This document shows positions 15,956 through 26,104 of a DNA stretch of 64,000 bases, one piece after another. The notes beneath the pieces were generated by a model. It searched no databases. It saw nothing but the letters and a program-made list of their open reading frames with translations, and was not told the DNA's origin. Where the stretch lies: contig NZ_CP109473.1 in NCBI RefSeq assembly GCF_036227405.1, forward strand, positions 7,254,001-7,318,000, read 5' to 3'. Made by a program: the position numbers and the translations under genes. The DNA is from Streptomyces sp. NBC_01460 (GTDB lineage: Bacteria; Actinomycetota; Actinomycetes; Streptomycetales; Streptomycetaceae). Each line of letters opens with the position of its first letter. Positions within the stretch are counted from its first letter, which is position 1.

Positions 15956-16777
15956 TCACAGGGCGGGCGGCCTGCGCTCCGCCGGTGTCAGCAGCAGCAC
16001 CGCCAGGGCGCGCGCGCAGGACCGGGCCTCTTCGAGGAACCGGTCCATCCGTTCGTCGGTGATCACGGAGGGGGTGGCGCGCACCGCGAGCGCGAAGCGC
16101 GCGTGACCGGCGCCGTCCAGCACGGGGACGGCCAGGGTGCGCACCCCGAGCGCCGACTCGCCGTCGTTCAGTGCGTACGCCGCGTGACGCACCCGCGCCA
16201 ACTCGGCCTGCAACAGCGCAGGTTCGACGATCGTACGATCAGTGAAGGCGCGCAGCGGCGGGAGTGCGGCGGGGCCGCCGTCGCCCGGCCGGGCCCAGGC
16301 CAGCAACACCTTGCCCAGGGCTGTCGAGTGCAGGGGCCGGCGCAGCCCCATCCGCGGGGTGACCGAACCGCCCGCGACGATCACGGCGTGCGGGCCGCTG
16401 CGCAGGGCCAGATCAGCCGTCGCGCCCGTGCGCTCGGCCAGGTCGGCCAGCTCCGGCGCCGCCAGATGCAGTCCGCGCTGGTGGTACGAGAGCCGGCCGA
16501 GCTCCGTCACCGCTGGGCCCAGCCGGTAGCGCGCGGTGCGCGGGTCCTGCTCCAGGAAGCCCGAACCCAGCAGGGTGCGGGCCAGCCGGTGTGCCGTGGA
16601 GGCGGAGAGCTCCAGGCGCCTGGCGAGGTCGGAGGCGCTCAGGTCCGGTCCGTTGTCGTGGAAACAGTGCAGGACGTCCAGCGCCCGCCGGACCGCCTGC
16701 GCCCCGCCCGGGGGGCTCTGCGCCGCTGCCTCGCTCATGCCGCTCTCGCTCTCCGCTGGTGAGGTGGAAGGAGACAT
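15956..16777 (-). CDS. IclR-family transcriptional regulator
   Basis: A 273-residue regulator with an N-terminal winged helix (AVRRALDVLHCFHDNGPDLSA..., about residues 28-90) and a C-terminal GAF-like effector domain (about 105-265, containing HSTALGKVLLAW and ALGVRTLAVPVLD). The ATG at 16777 is chosen because GGAG lies 5 bp upstream; the extra N-terminal residues of longer starts show no family features. It is divergent from the sulfur-acquisition operon (leader peptide at 16933), so it probably controls that operon. A perfect palindrome covers its own start codon, which would allow autoregulation. The effector is unknown; an organosulfur compound or sulfur status is the natural guess. Confidence 0.88.
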   Translation of the reverse strand: MSPSTSPAESESGMSEAAAQSPPGGAQAVRRALDVLHCFHDNGPDLSASDLARRLELSASTAHRLARTLLGSGFLEQDPRTARYRLGPAVTELGRLSYHQRGLHLAAPELADLAERTGATADLALRSGPHAVIVAGGSVTPRMGLRRPLHSTALGKVLLAWARPGDGGPAALPPLRAFTDRTIVEPALLQAELARVRHAAYALNDGESALGVRTLAVPVLDGAGHARFALAVRATPSVITDERMDRFLEEARSCARALAVLLLTPAERRPPAL

Positions 16778-16784
16778 GGTCTCC
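16770..16784. promoter_or_regulatory. Palindrome over the IclR gene start codon
   Basis: GGAGAC-ATG-GTCTCC is a perfect inverted repeat (6-bp arms, 3-bp centre) that includes the start codon of the IclR gene. A second palindrome with the same AC-ATG-GT core lies at 16844. Autoregulatory binding is inferred, not shown. Confidence 0.4.
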
Positions 16785-16843
16785 ACATTACGGGAGCGGA
16801 ATGATCGTGAAAGGGCGCTCCGCAACACTCTGTTCATACTCGA

Positions 16844-16858
16844 TCCCACATGGTGGGA
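16844..16858. promoter_or_regulatory. Palindrome upstream of the sulfur operon leader
   Basis: TCCCAC-ATG-GTGGGA is a perfect inverted repeat (6-bp arms, 3-bp centre), 75 bp before the leader peptide start and 74 bp from the similar palindrome at 16770. It lies where the promoter of the sulfur operon must be. It is a candidate operator for the divergent IclR protein. Confidence 0.4.
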
Positions 16859-16932
16859 GAAAGGTTGTGGACCGGTGCGGGGCCGTGGCACTGTGCAGTC
16901 CTCGTCACCGGCGTACGGAAAGGAGCAGAGCC

Positions 16933-17043
16933 ATGGCAGACCTCGGTGTCACCTCCTCCGGCAGCTCCGCTCCGGTCACCCTCGCCCTCACGCTGCGCCG
17001 TCACATCGACCTGGCGCGCGTCTCCAGCGCCGCCTGTCGCTGA
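16933..17043 (+). CDS. Putative cysteine-sensing leader peptide of the sulfur operon
   Basis: A 36-residue open frame with a strong AAAGGAG site 7 bp before its ATG. It ends RRHIDLARVSSAACR-stop. This ending (RRHIDL...SA-CR) is the signature of the small actinobacterial 'putative leader peptides' found in front of sulfate, cysteine and sulfonate genes. The only Cys codon (TGT, 17035-17037) is second to last, and a GC-rich hairpin starts 15 nt after the stop. Ribosome stalling at the Cys codon under low charged tRNA-Cys could change the folding of the downstream RNA and release the desulfinase-transporter operon from attenuation. The peptide is seen directly; the mechanism is inferred from the leader-peptide class. 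Confidence 0.85.
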   Translation: MADLGVTSSGSSAPVTLALTLRRHIDLARVSSAACR

Positions 17044-17199: not shown

Positions 17200-18243
17200 A
17201 TGACGCGCTCCGCCGTGCTGCCCAGCACCCTCTGGTTCACCCGCTGTCCCGTCCCGACCGCCACGGGCATCGCCGCCGACCGGCACTGGCTCAGCGAGGA
17301 GTTCGCGCCCGACGGCATCACCGTGCGCTCCCTCCAGGACGCCGCCCCCGACGCGGACCGCGCCTCCCACTACACCCACGCCCTGCCCGGTCTCTTCCGG
17401 GAGGGCGGCAACGTGCCCGCCCTCTGGGCCCGTTCACGCGGGGAGGCGACCCGTCTCATCGGCCTCACCTGGATCGAGGAACGGCAGGCCGTGCTGGTCG
17501 CGCCCGGATCCGGGATCAGGGGCGCCCACGCCCTGCGCGGCCTGCGGCTCGCCGTGCCCTCGCACGCCCTCGCCATCGACTTCTGGCGGGCCATGGCGCT
17601 GCGCGGATTCGAGGGCGCGCTGGCCTCCGCCGGTCTCGCCCTCGACGACGCCGTACCCGTCGACGTACCCGCCGACGCGCACGACGGCCAGTGGGCCGCC
17701 GAGATCGCCGCGCTCCGGCGCGGTGACGTGGACGCGGTGTACGTGAAGGGCGCGCTGGCCGTGGAGGCGGCCCGCCGGGCCGGAGCCGAGGTCGCCGTCG
17801 AACTCGACGAACTCCCCGACCGCCGGTTCCGCGTCAACAACGGCACGCCCCGCCCCATCACCGTCCATCAGCGGCTGCTGGACGACCACCCCGGCCTCGT
17901 CGACCGCTTCCTCGCCGTCCTGCTCAGGGCGGCCGACTGGGCCGCAGGCCATCCCGCCGACGTCGACCGCATCCTGGGTGCCGAGACCGGGGCGGGCGCC
18001 GACGGAGTCGCCGGCGCCTACCGCCCCGGCACCCACCTCACCCTGCACCCCGACCTGTCGGCCGAGCGCCTCGCCCTGCTCGCAGAGCAGGAGGCGGGGC
18101 TGCGCGCCCACGGCTTCCTCCCGGAGCCCGTCGACGTCGCCGCCTGGGCCGACCCCGAGCCGCTGCGCAGGGCAGCCGCCCTCGCAGGCCTCCGCCCCGT
18201 CCCCTCGCCCGCCCGCGAACCCGAAGGACCGCTGTCCGTATGA
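17200..18243 (+). CDS. DszB-like sulfinate desulfinase (binding-protein fold)
   Basis: A 347-residue protein of the NMT1/SsuA periplasmic-binding fold but with no signal peptide or lipobox, so it is cytoplasmic. It aligns with DszB, the 2'-hydroxybiphenyl-2-sulfinate desulfinase that splits C-S bonds to give sulfite. All three catalytic residues remembered for DszB are present in register: Cys27 as C16 in TRCPVPT, His60 as H57 in SHYTH, and Arg70 as R67 in LFREGG, followed by the conserved GG...P segment and TRLIGLT. The spacing H57 to R67 equals that in DszB. It is the first enzyme of the operon after the leader peptide and overlaps the transporter lipoprotein gene by 4 bp. It would otherwise be annotated as a substrate-binding protein. 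The natural sulfinate is unknown. Confidence 0.75.
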   Translation: MTRSAVLPSTLWFTRCPVPTATGIAADRHWLSEEFAPDGITVRSLQDAAPDADRASHYTHALPGLFREGGNVPALWARSRGEATRLIGLTWIEERQAVLVAPGSGIRGAHALRGLRLAVPSHALAIDFWRAMALRGFEGALASAGLALDDAVPVDVPADAHDGQWAAEIAALRRGDVDAVYVKGALAVEAARRAGAEVAVELDELPDRRFRVNNGTPRPITVHQRLLDDHPGLVDRFLAVLLRAADWAAGHPADVDRILGAETGAGADGVAGAYRPGTHLTLHPDLSAERLALLAEQEAGLRAHGFLPEPVDVAAWADPEPLRRAAALAGLRPVPSPAREPEGPLSV

Positions 18244-19259
18244 ACCAGCACCGATCAGTCCGTACGACCCTCGCGCCCGCCCTCCTCACGGTCACCGCGC
18301 TCGTGGCCCTCAGCGCCTGCGGCACCTCCGAGGCGGACAGAGACAGCGGTTCCGGTGCCACGGGCACCGTCACCGTGCGCATCCCCGACCCCGGCAACTC
18401 CGGCGTGCTCGCCGTCGGCAAGAAGGACGGCAGCCTCGACAAGGCCCTCGCCAAGGCCGGCGCCACGGTGGAGTGGACCGGCAGCGCCGGGCCCTTCGCG
18501 CCCGCGGCCCAGGCCATGAACGCGGACCAGCTCGACTTCGCCACCGGCTCCATCACCTCCGGCATCACCTCGCTGGCCCAGCGGCCCGGGTTCAAGTTCT
18601 TCACCGCCGTCGACCCCGACGCGGCGGGCGAGGGCATCCTCGTCCGTGACGGTTCGGGTATCGGTTCCGTCGCCGACCTCGTGGGGAAGAAGGTCGCCGT
18701 CAACCAGGGCGGCACCGGTGAGTACCTCCTGCTGAAGGCACTCGACAAGGCCGGGATCCCCGCGGACAAGGTCCAGCGGGTCTATCTGCGCCCCGACCAG
18801 ACCGCCGCCGTCTTCAACGCCGGCAAGGTCGACGCCTGGGCCGTCTGGGCCACCTACGCCGTGGCCGAGATCGGCAGCGGCAAGGCGCACTTCGTCGCCG
18901 ACGGCGCGGCCGTCGGCTCCGACAACTACAGCCTGAACGCGGTACGGACCGGCTTCGCCGAGAAGCACCCCGACGTCGTCAAGGCGCTCTACCAGTACCT
19001 CCACACGTCCAGCGTCAAGGAGAAGAAGAACCCCGCCGCCTACCTGAACGTCTTCACCGACGTCGGCCCCACCGCCGTCACCGGCAAGGCCGAGGAGGTG
19101 CAGACCGGGTTCATCGCCCAGGGCGGCACGGTCGACCCGATCGGCCCCGAGGACATCACCCGCTTCGAGGCCGTCGCCGCCTTCTACGCCGAACAGAAGG
19201 TCACCAGGACCCAGGTGGACGTCGCGGCCCACCTCCTCGACATCGAGAAGCTGACGTGA
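18240..19259 (+). CDS. ABC transporter substrate-binding lipoprotein (sulfonate/nitrate/taurine type)
   Basis: A 339-residue lipoprotein with a signal peptide ending in the lipobox LSAC (Cys at about residue 27). The mature part is an SsuA/NMT1-type solute-binding fold: VRIPDPGNSGVLAVGKKDG at the start, LDFATGSITSGI, GKKVAVNQGGTGEYLLLKAL and KVDAWAVWATYAV. The ATG overlaps the desulfinase stop (ATGA). With the permease and ATPase that follow, it forms a complete importer, probably for an organosulfur compound (sulfonate or sulfinate). The specificity comes from the operon context. Confidence 0.85.
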   Translation: MNQHRSVRTTLAPALLTVTALVALSACGTSEADRDSGSGATGTVTVRIPDPGNSGVLAVGKKDGSLDKALAKAGATVEWTGSAGPFAPAAQAMNADQLDFATGSITSGITSLAQRPGFKFFTAVDPDAAGEGILVRDGSGIGSVADLVGKKVAVNQGGTGEYLLLKALDKAGIPADKVQRVYLRPDQTAAVFNAGKVDAWAVWATYAVAEIGSGKAHFVADGAAVGSDNYSLNAVRTGFAEKHPDVVKALYQYLHTSSVKEKKNPAAYLNVFTDVGPTAVTGKAEEVQTGFIAQGGTVDPIGPEDITRFEAVAAFYAEQKVTRTQVDVAAHLLDIEKLT

Positions 19260-20095
19260 GCGCGGTCTCCGAGGCGGCGGCCACCGAGGGCCTGGTCACC
19301 CCCCGCCCCGCGCTCCGCACGACGCGCGCCCGTCCCTTCGCCCTGACCGTGCGCGCGCTGGGCCCTGTCGCCCTGCTCGTCCTGTGGTGGGTGGCCTCGG
19401 CCACCGGTGTACTCACCCCGGACGTGCTGGCCTCTCCCGCCGAAGTCCTGCGCGCCGTGGGCGAGCTGTGGGGGAACGGGCAGCTGCCGGACGCCCTCAC
19501 CACCTCCTTGACCCGCTCCGGCATCGGCCTGCTGATCGGTCTCGTCGCCGGGCTGACCCTCGGCGTCCTCACCGGATTCACCAGGATCGGCGACGAGCTC
19601 CTCGACTCCTCCCTCCAGACCCTGCGCACCATCCCCTTCCTCGCCCTGGTGCCGCTGTTCATGGTGTGGTTCGGGATCAACGAGACGGCGAAGATCCTTC
19701 TCATCGCCGTCGCCACCACGTTCCCCATGTACGTCTCCACGTCGAGCGGGGTGCGCAACACCGACCCGAAGCTCGTCGAGGCCATGCGCAGCTTCGGGAT
19801 GGGCCGGCTCGCCGTCGTCCGCGAGGTCGTCCTTCCCGGGGCACTGCCGTCCCTGCTGGCCGGACTGCGGCTGTCCATGACGCTCAGCGTGATCGCGCTC
19901 ATCGCCGCCGAGGAGATCAACGCCACCGCAGGCATCGGATACCTGATGTCCCAGGCGCAGAGCTACGCCCGGACCGACATCCTCGCCGTCTGCATCGTGA
20001 TCTACGGCCTGCTCGGGCTGGCCGCCGACATCGCCGTACGGCTGCTGGAACGCGTCCTGATGCCCTGGCGGCCCTCGCGGGGAGGGACCCGATGA
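19256..20095 (+). CDS. ABC transporter permease (SsuC-like)
   Basis: A 279-residue permease with about six membrane helices, beginning at a GTG that overlaps the previous stop by 4 bp. The cytoplasmic EAA loop, which contacts the ATPase, is seen at about residues 175-205 (EAMRSFGMGRLAVVREVVLPGALP). Family: binding-protein-dependent transport permease of the SsuC/TauC/NrtB type. It forms the membrane channel for the lipoprotein at 18240 and the ATPase at 20092. Confidence 0.9.
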   Translation: MSAVSEAAATEGLVTPRPALRTTRARPFALTVRALGPVALLVLWWVASATGVLTPDVLASPAEVLRAVGELWGNGQLPDALTTSLTRSGIGLLIGLVAGLTLGVLTGFTRIGDELLDSSLQTLRTIPFLALVPLFMVWFGINETAKILLIAVATTFPMYVSTSSGVRNTDPKLVEAMRSFGMGRLAVVREVVLPGALPSLLAGLRLSMTLSVIALIAAEEINATAGIGYLMSQAQSYARTDILAVCIVIYGLLGLAADIAVRLLERVLMPWRPSRGGTR

Positions 20096-20871
20096 GCGCC
20101 GGCACCGTACGGCCCGCCGTGCGGGTACGCGGCCTGCGCCGGGTGTTCGGCAGCAGGGCCGTGCTCGACGACCTGCGACTCGACATCGCGCGTGGCGAGT
20201 TCGTCGCCCTGCTCGGCGCGAGCGGAAGCGGCAAGACCACCCTGCTCCGCATCCTCGGTGCGCTGGACGGTGCCGACGGGGGAGAGGTGCTGGTCCCGGA
20301 GGCCCGCACCATCGTCTTCCAGGAGCCCCGCCTCGTGCCGTCCAAGAGGGTCCTGGCCAACGTGACCGTCGCCCTGCCCCGCAGCCGTGCGCCGCACGGG
20401 CTGCGGGCCCTGGCGGAGGTCGGTCTGGAAGGGCACGCGGAGGCCTGGCCCGGCACGCTCTCCGGCGGCGAGGCGCAGCGCGTGGCGCTCGCCCGTGCGC
20501 TGGTACGGGAGCCCGAACTCCTCCTGCTGGACGAGCCGTTCGCCGCGCTGGACGCCCTGACCCGGCTGAAGATGCAGGACCTGGTCGGGGAGTTGTGCCG
20601 CAAGCACCGCCCCGCGGTCCTCCTGGTCACCCATGACGTCGACGAGGCGGTACGGCTCGCGGACCGCGTCGCCGTCCTGCGCGACGGGAAGCTCGTCACC
20701 GACGAGCCCGTCGACATCGGCGGACCACGCGACCCCGGCGACCCCGCGTTCGCCGCACTGCGCCGCCGGCTGCTCCACGATCTCGGCGTCGACGCGGGCC
20801 CCGGCCCGCTCCCCGCACCCTCCTCCCCATCCTCACCGTCCCGCACACCTTCCGAAGCCGGAGCGATCTGA
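20092..20871 (+). CDS. ABC transporter ATP-binding protein (SsuB-like)
   Basis: A 259-residue ATPase. The ATG at 20092 overlaps the permease stop (ATGA). All motifs are present: Walker A GASGSGKTT, Q-loop FQEPRLVP, signature LSGGEAQR, Walker B LLLLDEPFAALD and the switch H in LVTHDVDEA. A Pro/Ser-rich tail of about 25 residues closes the protein. It powers import through the SsuC-like permease. The next gene starts immediately after its stop codon. Confidence 0.92.
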   Translation: MSAGTVRPAVRVRGLRRVFGSRAVLDDLRLDIARGEFVALLGASGSGKTTLLRILGALDGADGGEVLVPEARTIVFQEPRLVPSKRVLANVTVALPRSRAPHGLRALAEVGLEGHAEAWPGTLSGGEAQRVALARALVREPELLLLDEPFAALDALTRLKMQDLVGELCRKHRPAVLLVTHDVDEAVRLADRVAVLRDGKLVTDEPVDIGGPRDPGDPAFAALRRRLLHDLGVDAGPGPLPAPSSPSSPSRTPSEAGAI

Positions 20872-21768
20872 ATGACCGTCACCATCGGTGTCCACAGCAG
20901 CAACCCGTCCCTCTACCACCTGTACCACCTCTCCCGTCTCGGCTTCGCCCAGGAGGAACTGGCCGCGCTGGGCGAGACGGTGGCCTTCTTCCCGTACACC
21001 GACGGGGTCCGCACCGGCGAGCTGCTCACCCAGGGTGTGATCGACTTCGGCGGCACCGGCTCGACCCCGCCGGTCACCGCGCAGGCCGCGGGACACGACC
21101 TCGTCTACACCGCCGTCTCCGCCCCGCGTCCCGGGCACGGCGCGCTCCTGGTGCCCGAGGACAGCCCCGTCCGCACGGTCGCCGGTCTCAAGGGGGCGAC
21201 CGTCCACCTCGCGATCGGGTCCTGGCAGACCCATCTGATCGCCAAGGCGCTGGACGACGCGGGGCTCTCCTACGCCGACGACATCACCGCCGTCCGGAGC
21301 AACGGCGACAGCGAGCGGCTGCTGCTTGCCGGGGAGATCGGCGCCTGGGTCGCCCAGGGGCCCGAGCTCGCCGCCGCCCGCAGGACCGGCGGACTGCGCA
21401 CGCTCGTCGCCACCGGGGACGTCATCTCGGACCGCTCCGTCTTCTTCACCCGGCGCGACTTCGCCGAGAACCGCCCCGAGGTCGTCGAGGCGCTGACCCG
21501 CGCCCTCCGGCGCGCAGACGACTGGGCGGCGGCCAACCCCCGCGCCGCCGCCGAGATCGCCGCCGCCGACCTGGGCGGAAGCGCCGACGACTGGGAGACC
21601 GCCCTGCGCGCCCTGCCGTGGACGATCGAGGCCGTGAGCGACGCGTTCATCGCCGAGCAGCAGGAGGCCGCGGACATCTTCCACCGCACCGGCTTCATCG
21701 ACCGGCCGGTCGAGGTCGCCGGAGCCCGGGCGCGCGTCACCGGTGCCACCGGCCCGAAGGGGGCCTGA
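20872..21768 (+). CDS. Signal-less ABC binding-protein homologue (cytoplasmic)
   Basis: A 298-residue protein with the SsuA/NMT1 binding-protein fold (GSTPPVTAQAAGH, GLKGATVHLAIGSWQTHLIAKAL, RSVFFTRRDFAENRPEVVEALTRAL) but no signal peptide and no lipobox; conserved sequence begins at residue 3. It has no Cys at all, so it lacks the DszB nucleophile found in the relative at 17200. It starts directly after the ATPase stop and is followed by the SsuD-like monooxygenase. It may be a cytoplasmic substrate carrier, an effector sensor or an enzyme with another mechanism. Secretion by a non-classical route cannot be excluded. Confidence 0.7.
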   Translation: MTVTIGVHSSNPSLYHLYHLSRLGFAQEELAALGETVAFFPYTDGVRTGELLTQGVIDFGGTGSTPPVTAQAAGHDLVYTAVSAPRPGHGALLVPEDSPVRTVAGLKGATVHLAIGSWQTHLIAKALDDAGLSYADDITAVRSNGDSERLLLAGEIGAWVAQGPELAAARRTGGLRTLVATGDVISDRSVFFTRRDFAENRPEVVEALTRALRRADDWAAANPRAAAEIAAADLGGSADDWETALRALPWTIEAVSDAFIAEQQEAADIFHRTGFIDRPVEVAGARARVTGATGPKGA

Positions 21769-21773
21769 GCACC

Positions 21774-22847
21774 GTGGCGGCCGAAGTCCTCTGGTACATC
21801 ATCCCGCGCGAAGGCGCCTACCCCTGGGAACCCGAGGGCCGGCGGACCGCCGACCTCGGCTATCTCAGCCGGCTCGCCGGAACCGTCGAACAGCTCGGTT
21901 ACAGCGGCGCCCTGCTCGCCACCGACCTGTACGACGTGTGGCCGCTGGGCAGCGCCCTCGCCGCGTCCACCAGCACCCGGTTCAAGCCGCTGCTCGCCGT
22001 CCATCCCGGGCTCATCTCGCCGACCCTACTGGCCAAGATGGCGCTCAGCTTCGACCAGCTCTTCGGGGGGCGCCTGCGCTTCAACGTCGTCAACGGCTCG
22101 ACGAAGTCGCTCCAGGAGTACGGACTCCATGTGGAGCACGACGAGCGGTACGCGCTCAGCGCCGAGTACTGGTCGATCGTGAAGAGGCTGACGGCGGGAG
22201 AGGTGTTCGACCACAAGGGCCGCTTCTACGACCTGAAGAACGCGGGAGCCTCGTTCCGTGACCTGAAGCCGGTACAGGCCCCGCACATCCCGCTGTGGTT
22301 CGGGGGCTCGTCCGACCCGGGGATCGAGATGGCGGCCGAGCACGTCGACGTCTTCCTCACCTGGGGTGAACCGCCACACCTGCTCAAGGAGAAGCTGGAG
22401 AAGGTCCGGGCGCGGGCCCGCGCCCACGGCCGCACCCTGCGCATCGGACTGCGGCTCCACCTCATCGTGCGCGACACGGAGGACGAGGCGTGGGCCGCCG
22501 CCGACCGGCTGCTGGACGTCACCAGCGAGGCGACGTACGCCCGCATGCTCGGCGACCGGGCCGGTGAGGAGGGAGTGGGCTGGCAGCGTCAGTTCCGGCA
22601 GCACGGCGGGCGGGTCCCGGCCCGTGCGCGGGAACTGGAGACGCACCCCAACATGTGGCCGGGCATGAGTCTCTTCAGGCCCGGCCCCGGCACGGCGGTC
22701 GTCGGCTCGACGGCCCAGGTCGTGGAGCGTCTCAAGGAGTTCGAGGACCTGGGTGTCGACACCTTCATCCTGTCCGGGAACCCACTCCTGGAGGAGGCCT
22801 ACAGGGTCGCGGAAACCGTGCTCCCGGCGCTCGGTGTCGTGCGCTGA
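21774..22847 (+). CDS. SsuD-like FMNH2-dependent monooxygenase (LLM family)
   Basis: A 357-residue luciferase-like monooxygenase that aligns along its length with alkanesulfonate monooxygenase SsuD, which releases sulfite from sulfonates using FMNH2. Shared segments are FGGSSD, DVFLTWGEPP, GLRLHLIVRDTEDEAW (the Arg and His of SsuD's active site) and the C-terminal LSG-P-LEEAYRV block. The SsuD Tyr331 position appears to be Asn here (SGNPLLEEAYR), and no Cys is at the SsuD Cys54 position, so the substrate may differ. The GTG start lies 5 bp after the previous stop. It closes the operon and would feed sulfite to cysteine synthesis. A flavin reductase partner is not in the operon. Confidence 0.85.
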   Translation: MAAEVLWYIIPREGAYPWEPEGRRTADLGYLSRLAGTVEQLGYSGALLATDLYDVWPLGSALAASTSTRFKPLLAVHPGLISPTLLAKMALSFDQLFGGRLRFNVVNGSTKSLQEYGLHVEHDERYALSAEYWSIVKRLTAGEVFDHKGRFYDLKNAGASFRDLKPVQAPHIPLWFGGSSDPGIEMAAEHVDVFLTWGEPPHLLKEKLEKVRARARAHGRTLRIGLRLHLIVRDTEDEAWAAADRLLDVTSEATYARMLGDRAGEEGVGWQRQFRQHGGRVPARARELETHPNMWPGMSLFRPGPGTAVVGSTAQVVERLKEFEDLGVDTFILSGNPLLEEAYRVAETVLPALGVVR

Positions 22848-22896: not shown

Positions 22897-22991
22897 CTGC
22901 GGTCGCCGGTCCCCGGTGCAAGACTCGGAAGGTGAGTGATGTCCGGCGTGTGCGAACGCGCCGGGCACGGAATCCGCCCGAGGAGCACACC

Positions 22992-23780
22992 ATGCTCGAC
23001 CCCGCTTTCGTCACCGGCGCCCCCAACTGGGTCGACCTCGGCACTCCCGACATCGACGCCGCCACGGCCTTCTACCACGGGCTCTTCGGCTGGGAGCTGG
23101 TGCCCGGTGGCCCCGAGACAGGCAGGTACGGGACGTACCGGCTGAGGGACAGGACCGTCGCCGGCGTCATGACCGTCCCCGAGGAGCAGGGCAAGCCGGC
23201 CTGGTCGGTCTACTTCCAGACCCCCGACGCCGACGCCACCACGAGGACGGTCGAGCAGGCCGGCGGCCGTGCGATGTTCCCCCCGCTGGACGTACTCGGC
23301 TACGGGCGCATGGGCGGCTTCACGGACAGCGCCGGCGCGTACTTCGGCGTCTGGCAGCCGGGGACGAACACCGGCCTCGGCATCACCATGGAGCCGGGCG
23401 CGCTGATCTGGTCCGAGCTCCACACCCCGGACGTTCCCTCGGCGGCCGCCTTCTTCCACACGGTCTTCGGCTGGCAGACCGAGGCCATGGCCTACCCCAG
23501 CGGTTCCTACACGATGGTCCGCCCGGCCGGCGGTGAGGGTGCCGACTCGTCCTTCGGCGGCATCGTGCCCCTCGACGAGGCTCCCGGCCAGGAGCCGGCG
23601 GGGCCGCACTGGCTGCCGTACTTCGCCGTGGACGACGCCGACGCGACCGCCGCCGGGGCGGAACGGCTGGGCGGGCGGGTGGTCGTGCCCGCCACCGACG
23701 TACCCGAGGTCGGCCGGATCGCCACCCTCACCGATCCCGCGGGAGCGGCGTTCGCGGTGATCAAGCCCGCCCCCATGTAG
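22992..23780 (+). CDS. Two-domain VOC (glyoxalase/bleomycin-resistance fold) protein
   Basis: A 262-residue protein of two tandem vicinal-oxygen-chelate domains. The first begins PNWVDLGTPDIDAATAFYHGLFGWE, the second LIWSELHTPDVPSAAAFFHTVFGW. This resembles the mycobacterial CFP30B-like group. The ATG at 22992 is favoured by GAGGAG about 7 bp upstream; the in-frame GTG start further up would add a basic, non-conserved stretch. No substrate can be assigned. A terminator follows. Confidence 0.85.
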   Translation: MLDPAFVTGAPNWVDLGTPDIDAATAFYHGLFGWELVPGGPETGRYGTYRLRDRTVAGVMTVPEEQGKPAWSVYFQTPDADATTRTVEQAGGRAMFPPLDVLGYGRMGGFTDSAGAYFGVWQPGTNTGLGITMEPGALIWSELHTPDVPSAAAFFHTVFGWQTEAMAYPSGSYTMVRPAGGEGADSSFGGIVPLDEAPGQEPAGPHWLPYFAVDDADATAAGAERLGGRVVVPATDVPEVGRIATLTDPAGAAFAVIKPAPM

Positions 23781-25126: not shown

Positions 25127-26104
25127 TCAGCCCTGGGCGGCCCGGGCCGCCACGCGCGCCTTGCGCGCCGCCAGCTTCTCGTCGAACTTGGACGCCTCGC
25201 TGTCCAGGCCGCTCATGTACAGCCCGAGTTCCTCCTGCGCCTTGAGGCCCTCCGGGCCGAGTCCGTCGATCTCGAGGACCTTCAGGTAGCGCAGGACGGG
25301 CTGGATCACGTCGTCGTGGTGGATCCGCATGTTGTAGATCTCGCCGATCGCCATCTGCGCGGCGGCCCGCTCGAAGCCGGGCATGCCGTGTCCGGGCATC
25401 CGGAAGTTCACGACGACGTCCCGCACGGACTGCATCGTGAGGTCCGGGGCGAGGTCGAAGGCCGCGCCCAGCAGGTTGCGGTAGAAGACCATGTGCAGGT
25501 TCTCGTCGGTCGCGATGCGGGCCAGCATCCGGTCGCAGACGGGGTCGCCCGACTGGTGGCCGGTGTTGCGGTGCGAGACGCGCGTCGCGAGCTCCTGGAA
25601 CGCGACGTACGCGACGGAGTGCAGCATGGAGTGGCGGTTGTCGGACTCGAAGCCCTCCGCCATGTGCGCCATGCGGAACTGCTCCAGCTTGTCCGGGTCC
25701 ACGGCGCGCGAGGTCAGCAGGTAGTCGCGCATCACGATGCCGTGCCTGCCCTCCTCCGCGGTCCAGCGGTGCACCCAGGTGCCCCAGGCGCCGTCGCGGC
25801 CGAAGAGGGAGGCGATCTCGTGGTGGTAGCTGGGGAGGTTGTCCTCGGTGAGCAGGTTCACGACGAGTGCGATGCGTCCGATGTCGGTGACCTTGGACTG
25901 GCCGGTCTCCCACGCCTCGCCGTCCTCGAAGATGCCGGGGAAGTTCCGGCCGTCGGAGAACGGTACGTACTCGTGGGGCATCCAGTCCTTGGCGACCTTG
26001 AGATGGCGGTTGAGTTCCTTCTCCACCACCTCTTCCAGCGCGTACAGCAGCTGGGCGTCGGTCCACGCCTTCGAACTGCCGAGGTGGGGAGAGGTGATCG
26101 TCAC
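25127..26104 (-). CDS. Acyl-ACP desaturase (ferritin-like, di-iron)
   Basis: A 325-residue soluble fatty-acid desaturase of the plant/actinobacterial acyl-ACP type, which inserts a double bond in acyl chains bound to ACP. Di-iron ligands lie in the helices LLTEDNLPSYHHE, TAEEGRHG and ATDENLHM, each with the expected E...ExxH spacing. The length agrees with the family. Electrons would come from ferredoxin, not encoded nearby. Upstream is an operator-like inverted repeat at 26130-26147. Expression is probably tied to membrane fluidity or fatty-acid sensing. Confidence 0.92.
   Translation of the reverse strand: MTITSPHLGSSKAWTDAQLLYALEEVVEKELNRHLKVAKDWMPHEYVPFSDGRNFPGIFEDGEAWETGQSKVTDIGRIALVVNLLTEDNLPSYHHEIASLFGRDGAWGTWVHRWTAEEGRHGIVMRDYLLTSRAVDPDKLEQFRMAHMAEGFESDNRHSMLHSVAYVAFQELATRVSHRNTGHQSGDPVCDRMLARIATDENLHMVFYRNLLGAAFDLAPDLTMQSVRDVVVNFRMPGHGMPGFERAAAQMAIGEIYNMRIHHDDVIQPVLRYLKVLEIDGLGPEGLKAQEELGLYMSGLDSEASKFDEKLAARKARVAARAAQG

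Follow-up and report, generated by a model that had tools for sequence, protein, structure and literature searches.

The window analysed here is a 64,000-nucleotide stretch of contig NZ_CP109473.1 from Streptomyces sp. NBC_01460. It contains an operon that runs, in order, through a short leader open reading frame (ORF), a DszB-like gene (17200..18243), an SsuA-like lipoprotein gene, the permease and ATPase genes of an ATP-binding cassette (ABC) importer, a second SsuA-like gene lacking an export signal and an SsuD-like monooxygenase gene, with an IclR-family gene divergent from it. The DszB-like protein is our main subject. We read it as a sulfinate desulfinase that belongs to the DszB superfamily, resides in the cytoplasm and would free sulfite under sulfur starvation, with a probability of about 0.65. 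This reading draws on homology, fold, aligned residues, gene order, a low cysteine and methionine content and the family of the leader peptide.

Relation of the 17200..18243 protein to DszB

To place the protein, we used a sequence search of the PDB, which gave six matches at E up to 10. Only the two entries for DszB, 2de2 (1.9e-15) and 2de3 (5.4e-14), fell below 0.1. DszB (or TdsB) is the 2'-hydroxybiphenyl-2-sulfinate desulfinase of the 4S pathway, and its fold was also the best match. The SsuA family match was sub-threshold (60.3 of 163.5 bits), and both sequence and fold are closer to DszB than to SsuA. A preliminary description of this DNA had named three DszB catalytic residues, an identical His-to-Arg spacing and a common GG...P segment, and the alignment agrees on each: C16 pairs with C27, H57 with H60 and R67 with R70, Gly73 of DszB is likewise in register by sequence columns, and an R-x-G-G...P segment is common to both. 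The His-to-Arg spacing is 10 in both proteins, whilst the Cys-to-His spacing is 41 here and 33 in DszB. The cytoplasmic location claimed there also stands: inspection by eye found no hydrophobic stretch or lipobox, and the structure model opens, at residue 10, with a strand running into C16. One orthologue (L059) begins MPDTLWFTRCP. DszB shares the lack of an export signal, and also has a hydroxyl residue two positions before the cysteine. The source genome has one copy of the gene.

Two protein searches listed 240 relatives in all (the best 120 from 1936 and the best 120 from 1660); every one of them has the Cys-His-Arg-GG motif, and 235 have exactly one cysteine. The cysteine was also conserved in 29/29 rows from pattern-free genome searches. 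The informative point is that the listed relatives keep the same cysteine and almost no other; one cysteine in one protein is unremarkable, and with a window median of 0.45% Cys a low count in a single protein is weak evidence alone. A pattern scan of genomes gave 495 relatives, from which we kept the best 80 loci, those most like the window protein; cysteine conservation among these 80 is biased because the scan pattern contained the cysteine.

Residues were counted in 119 distinct rows, which include a few strict DszB rows. R67, G69 and G70 were invariant, whilst cysteine stood at C16 in 114 rows, histidine at H57 in 117, and T14 (S25 of DszB) was kept in 115. The departures at C16 were four serines and one gap that stems from start-codon choice (L056); H57 was missing from two rows, one of which also had serine at C16. 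DszB-like paralogues with serine for the catalytic cysteine occur in Pseudomonas (L094, L097 and L104) and on a Burkholderia plasmid (L003), with cysteine-bearing copies adjoining or near, and the tandem Pseudomonas paralogues include both forms at this position. On rhizobial (L004) and Sphingobium (L002) plasmids, two or three DszB-like genes adjoin genes for flavin monooxygenases, L004 also having an acyl-CoA-dehydrogenase-like gene.

Judged by its sequence, the window protein belongs to a sister clade of DszB and is not a strict DszB. In a quick tree of 74 rows, 14 strict DszB rows (SH-aLRT 92) were sister to 52 window-family rows (96), and eight binding-protein rows stood apart from both groups. 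Identity to the strict DszB rows was 23-32%. A second histidine (H60 in the window numbering) was present in 114/119 rows, a place occupied in 15 strict DszB rows by Tyr (8), Gly (3), Phe (3) or Val (1). Leucine replaced Gln65 of DszB in 109/119 rows, as against His (9), Gln (3) and Leu (3) in the strict rows. The stretches that match lid loops 2 and 3 of DszB, as positioned in the available text of PMC12168087, are shorter in the window family. Taken together, the second histidine, the leucine, the short lid and the low identity argue for a different substrate, with the chemistry of DszB probably retained. The same text links the DszB loops to product inhibition, and the window family supplies short-loop homologues for comparison.

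Operon layout and related loci

Table 1. Positions of the operon, its control elements and the aligned catalytic codons within the window
Feature	Positions	Strand	Remarks
Divergent IclR-family regulator ORF	15956..16891	-	Divergent relative in 48/49 loci of the window layout
Ribosome-site-like GGAAAGGAG	16917-16925	+	Ahead of the leader ORF
Leader peptide ORF	16933..17043	+	36 codons; ends ...RHIDLARVSSAACR (Cys-Arg); NCBIfam NF042934.1
Putative DszB-like desulfinase	17200..18243	+	ATG start; 347 aa; no export signal
C16 codon	17245..17247	+	C27 of DszB; sole cysteine of the protein
H57 codon	17368..17370	+	H60 of DszB
R67 codon	17398..17400	+	R70 of DszB; followed by G69-G70
SsuA-like binding protein	18240..19259	+	Lipoprotein signal; single Cys at 27
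ABC importer permease	19256..20095	+	SsuC-like
ABC importer ATPase	20092..20871	+	SsuB-like
SsuA-like protein	20872..21768	+	No export signal; free of Cys and, apart from the start, of Met
SsuD-like monooxygenase	21774..22847	+	FMNH2-dependent (LLM class); GTG start

The operon genes are joined by three 4-base overlaps and one abutment, with a 5-base gap before the last gene. The true start of the IclR-family protein is probably codon 52 (16738), given the length of an annotated relative in L001. The partners assigned in the preliminary description hold up: the lipoprotein, permease and ATPase make a full importer, and the best PDB match of the monooxygenase is SsuD (1nqk, E 6.2e-86). So does the lack of DszC, with no DszC-like gene detected at the locus; a whole-genome DszC query gave 17 matches, the best of which (E 1.4e-13, 28% identity) is at the level of acyl-CoA dehydrogenases. 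Strict DszB stands in an operon with its partners DszA and DszC, whereas the window locus lacks such an operon and pairs its putative desulfinase with an importer and an SsuD-like enzyme.

The protein at 20872..21768 begins at its mature N-terminus, a start found in 77 distinct relatives. It gave values of 18.6 against DszB and 33.2 against SsuA, the reverse of the 17200..18243 protein. With this protein, binding proteins in the cytoplasm become a question that can be put to the test. Among the papers listed by our literature searches, which left out most subscription papers, we recognised no account of this Streptomyces operon or of an SsuA without a signal.

Of the 80 kept loci, 49 have the exact window layout and an SsuD-like gene that shares 60% identity or more with the one in the window. 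In 15 others the LLM gene precedes the signal-less SsuA gene, in 7 the order is importer, desulfinase, LLM and SsuA, and the remaining 9 have other layouts, partly on short contigs. DszC-like matches numbered 0/49, 1/15, 0/7 and 4/9, respectively, with 31-33% identity where values were given. The operon looks like a sulfur-starvation system conserved in actinobacteria. It shares an importer and an SsuD-like enzyme with the ssu alkanesulfonate operon (SsuA, SsuB, SsuC and SsuD), but differs by the extra DszB-like protein, the second, signal-less SsuA and a flavin reductase encoded outside the operon.

A precedent exists, and the preliminary description, in which DszB is known from dibenzothiophene desulfurisation, overstated the isolation of the system; this type of enzyme is known beyond dibenzothiophene. 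According to the accessible part of PMC3868597, bdsABC of Gordonia terrae C-6 comprises a desulfinase, an FMNH2-dependent monooxygenase and an SsuD-like enzyme, which increased on benzothiophene along with adjoining importer genes, and Escherichia coli extracts with bdsABC turned benzothiophene into o-hydroxystyrene. Five Gordonia-like loci that contain close relatives of the window protein (L127, L128, L129, L138 and L139) carry genes for a substrate-binding protein, permease, ATPase, desulfinase, two LLM enzymes and a signal-less SsuA, an order that in all five equals GTC6_01620 to GTC6_01585 of strain C-6 as published there. Where the published order has a hypothetical gene, L139 and, by eye, L127 have an aldolase-like gene, and one of these genomes also holds a dsz cluster (L130). 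The window protein shares 50% identity with the desulfinase of L127 and 49% with that of the L119 copy of L138. The published BdsA cloning primers matched related loci at best with at least 7 (27-base primer) and at least 6 (21-base primer) mismatches, and the primer pattern with up to 2 mismatches was found in 4/298 genomes. Since the BdsA sequence of strain C-6 was not found via the primers in related loci, orthology to BdsA is inferred from gene order. The window has the same run of importer, desulfinase, monooxygenase and signal-less SsuA genes, and its putative desulfinase likewise has genes for a sulfonate importer and an SsuD-like enzyme as neighbours; it differs from the bds region, as far as the latter is described, in having one monooxygenase and not two, another gene order and a leader peptide, which was not seen in bds. 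The desulfinase interpretation keeps its residues, location and partners, and loses its isolation and its assignment to DszB in the strict sense.

Leader peptide and sulfur economy

Most of the soluble operon proteins are poor in cysteine and methionine. Leaving out the start, the two residues make up 0.58% of the putative desulfinase, 0.59% of the lipoprotein, 0.77% of the ATPase, none of the signal-less SsuA and 1.4% of the monooxygenase, against a window median of 2.25% (38 ORFs picked by composition); the permease, at 2.87%, departs from the trend. In Gordonia sp. NB4-1Y, oxygenases induced on organosulfur compounds have a low sulfur content, according to the text available of PMC7661421.

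The leader ORF passes the putative leader peptide family NF042934.1 (29.6 bits, cut-off 27) and lies below the cut-off of Ms4527A (28.4 of 45). The leader motif was found upstream of 44 of 120 distinct relatives compared with 2 of 600 shuffles, and 43 of the 44 genes are from Streptomycetaceae or the window itself. One of the 44 (L101) is probably a chance match, and three have no start codon in the scanned stretch. In 14 other loci, at least 2 of which are the same contig twice, the motif was absent upstream of the importer. Between leader and gene, we found no promoter-like or terminator-like site and no Rfam match, and the fold z-score was 0.07. Canestrari and co-workers have reportedly worked on mycobacterial Cys leader peptides. 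The mycobacterial cys operons have Cys leader peptides without terminators, as described in the portion available of PMC1262725; the window leader resembles these and NF042934 in being a short ORF upstream of sulfur genes, with a Cys codon near the stop and no terminator seen, but has one Cys codon in place of a run.

Proposed function, alternatives and distribution

During sulfur starvation, the importer would take in an anionic organosulfur compound, which the SsuD-like enzyme might convert into a sulfinate or from which it might free one. By analogy with DszB, the desulfinase would grip the sulfinate through H57, R67 and the backbone of G70, C16 would protonate the carbon, and SO2 would depart as sulfite for cysteine synthesis. 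The available text of PMC6100217 has C27 of DszB giving its proton to an aromatic carbon, the H60-S25 pair being said to stabilise the transition state, and this makes alkyl sulfinates less likely substrates than aryl or vinyl ones. Control would probably be double, by the divergent IclR protein and by translation of the leader, whose Cys codon lies two codons before the stop; scarce charged Cys-tRNA would then raise expression.

Several observations weigh against a desulfinase. Identity to strict DszB is about 30% or less, and the second histidine, the leucine at Gln65 and the shorter lid loops all depart from it. Serine-for-cysteine paralogues persist in some proteobacterial loci, which shows that the fold can be maintained without this catalysis. 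The operon has no flavin reductase, although the genome has eight of family PF01613. Finally, the SsuD-like partner alone would free sulfite from alkanesulfonates, so that known SsuD chemistry leaves the need for a desulfinase unexplained; the presence of one suggests a compound whose sulfur passes via a sulfinate. A more specific proposal, which we hold tentatively and at well short of even odds, is a separate desulfinase family with its own active site (Cys-His-Arg, the second histidine and a short lid) acting on a natural, non-thiophenic soil sulfinate, with the de-exported SsuA passing the compound on, inside the cytoplasm, from the importer to the enzymes. Soil actinobacteria would in that case have here a module dedicated to sulfinates and controlled by a Cys-codon leader, and not a pollutant pathway.

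Two other main readings were also weighed and are kept as rivals: that the protein simply binds a ligand, and that the pathway serves benzothiophene alone. The first, a binding protein or ligand sensor that stays unexported and would buffer or report the imported compound in the cytoplasm and have no enzyme activity, is unlikely: the binding-protein fold, the sub-threshold SsuA match, the serine paralogues and the second unexported binding protein in the same operon are consistent with it, but the greater likeness to DszB than to SsuA, opposite to the neighbour at 20872..21768, and the cysteine kept by all the listed relatives, nearly always as the only one, argue against it. We give a similarly low chance to a variant of the bds pathway, in which the DszB-like protein would desulfinate what the LLM enzyme makes by opening a thiophene sulfone. 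The core genes are shared, a relative about half identical lies in Gordonia-like loci with the bdsABC order, and bdsABC extract does convert benzothiophene (PMC3868597, as far as accessible). However, where that pathway has two LLM enzymes the window operon has a single one, which shares 37% identity with the nearer of them, and with no DszC in the genome above the level of acyl-CoA dehydrogenases, the sulfone has no obvious source. SsuA-type importers, moreover, are known to take up anionic sulfonates. A third rival, in which the fold serves another reaction such as decarboxylation, is very improbable, since the matches of this kind score far lower than DszB and it is the DszB residues that are conserved. 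The odds given to this rival and to the bds variant were chosen to make all the readings add up to one.

Most named family members in the two protein-search lists are called ABC transporter substrate-binding proteins, and a few desulfinase, monooxygenase or soxB (soxABC being an old name of dszABC). Filed in this way, an enzyme of soil actinomycetes that probably cleaves C-S bonds can easily escape notice. DszB has mainly been studied for fossil-fuel desulfurisation, and a relative in an ordinary operon for sulfur starvation would hint at the origin of such enzymes.

The putative desulfinase gene is accessory in the genus, with a match in 17/150 genomes, the source genome included; one of the 17 has only a 54% paralogue. 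In another (G005), the copy (L020 and L023) is split over two overlapping reading frames, through decay or sequencing error. A phylum search that scored few candidates per genome found 2/396 genomes, again with the source, a strict DszB query within one order found 3/200, and searches of other genera gave 2/16, 9/59 (the Gordonia-like genus) and 0/37. The 343-kb linear plasmid of Streptomyces sp. SAT1 bears one copy. Directly after the window operon, 22932-23780 encodes a protein that has a glyoxalase domain and matches the family of the AfsK-binding protein KbpA below threshold (130.4 of 250 bits). Further on, 25686-25753 matches Rfam RF01781 (ASdes, a small RNA described in Mycobacterium tuberculosis) at 71.2 bits (cut-off 40) and overlaps the minus-strand ORF 25127-26104.
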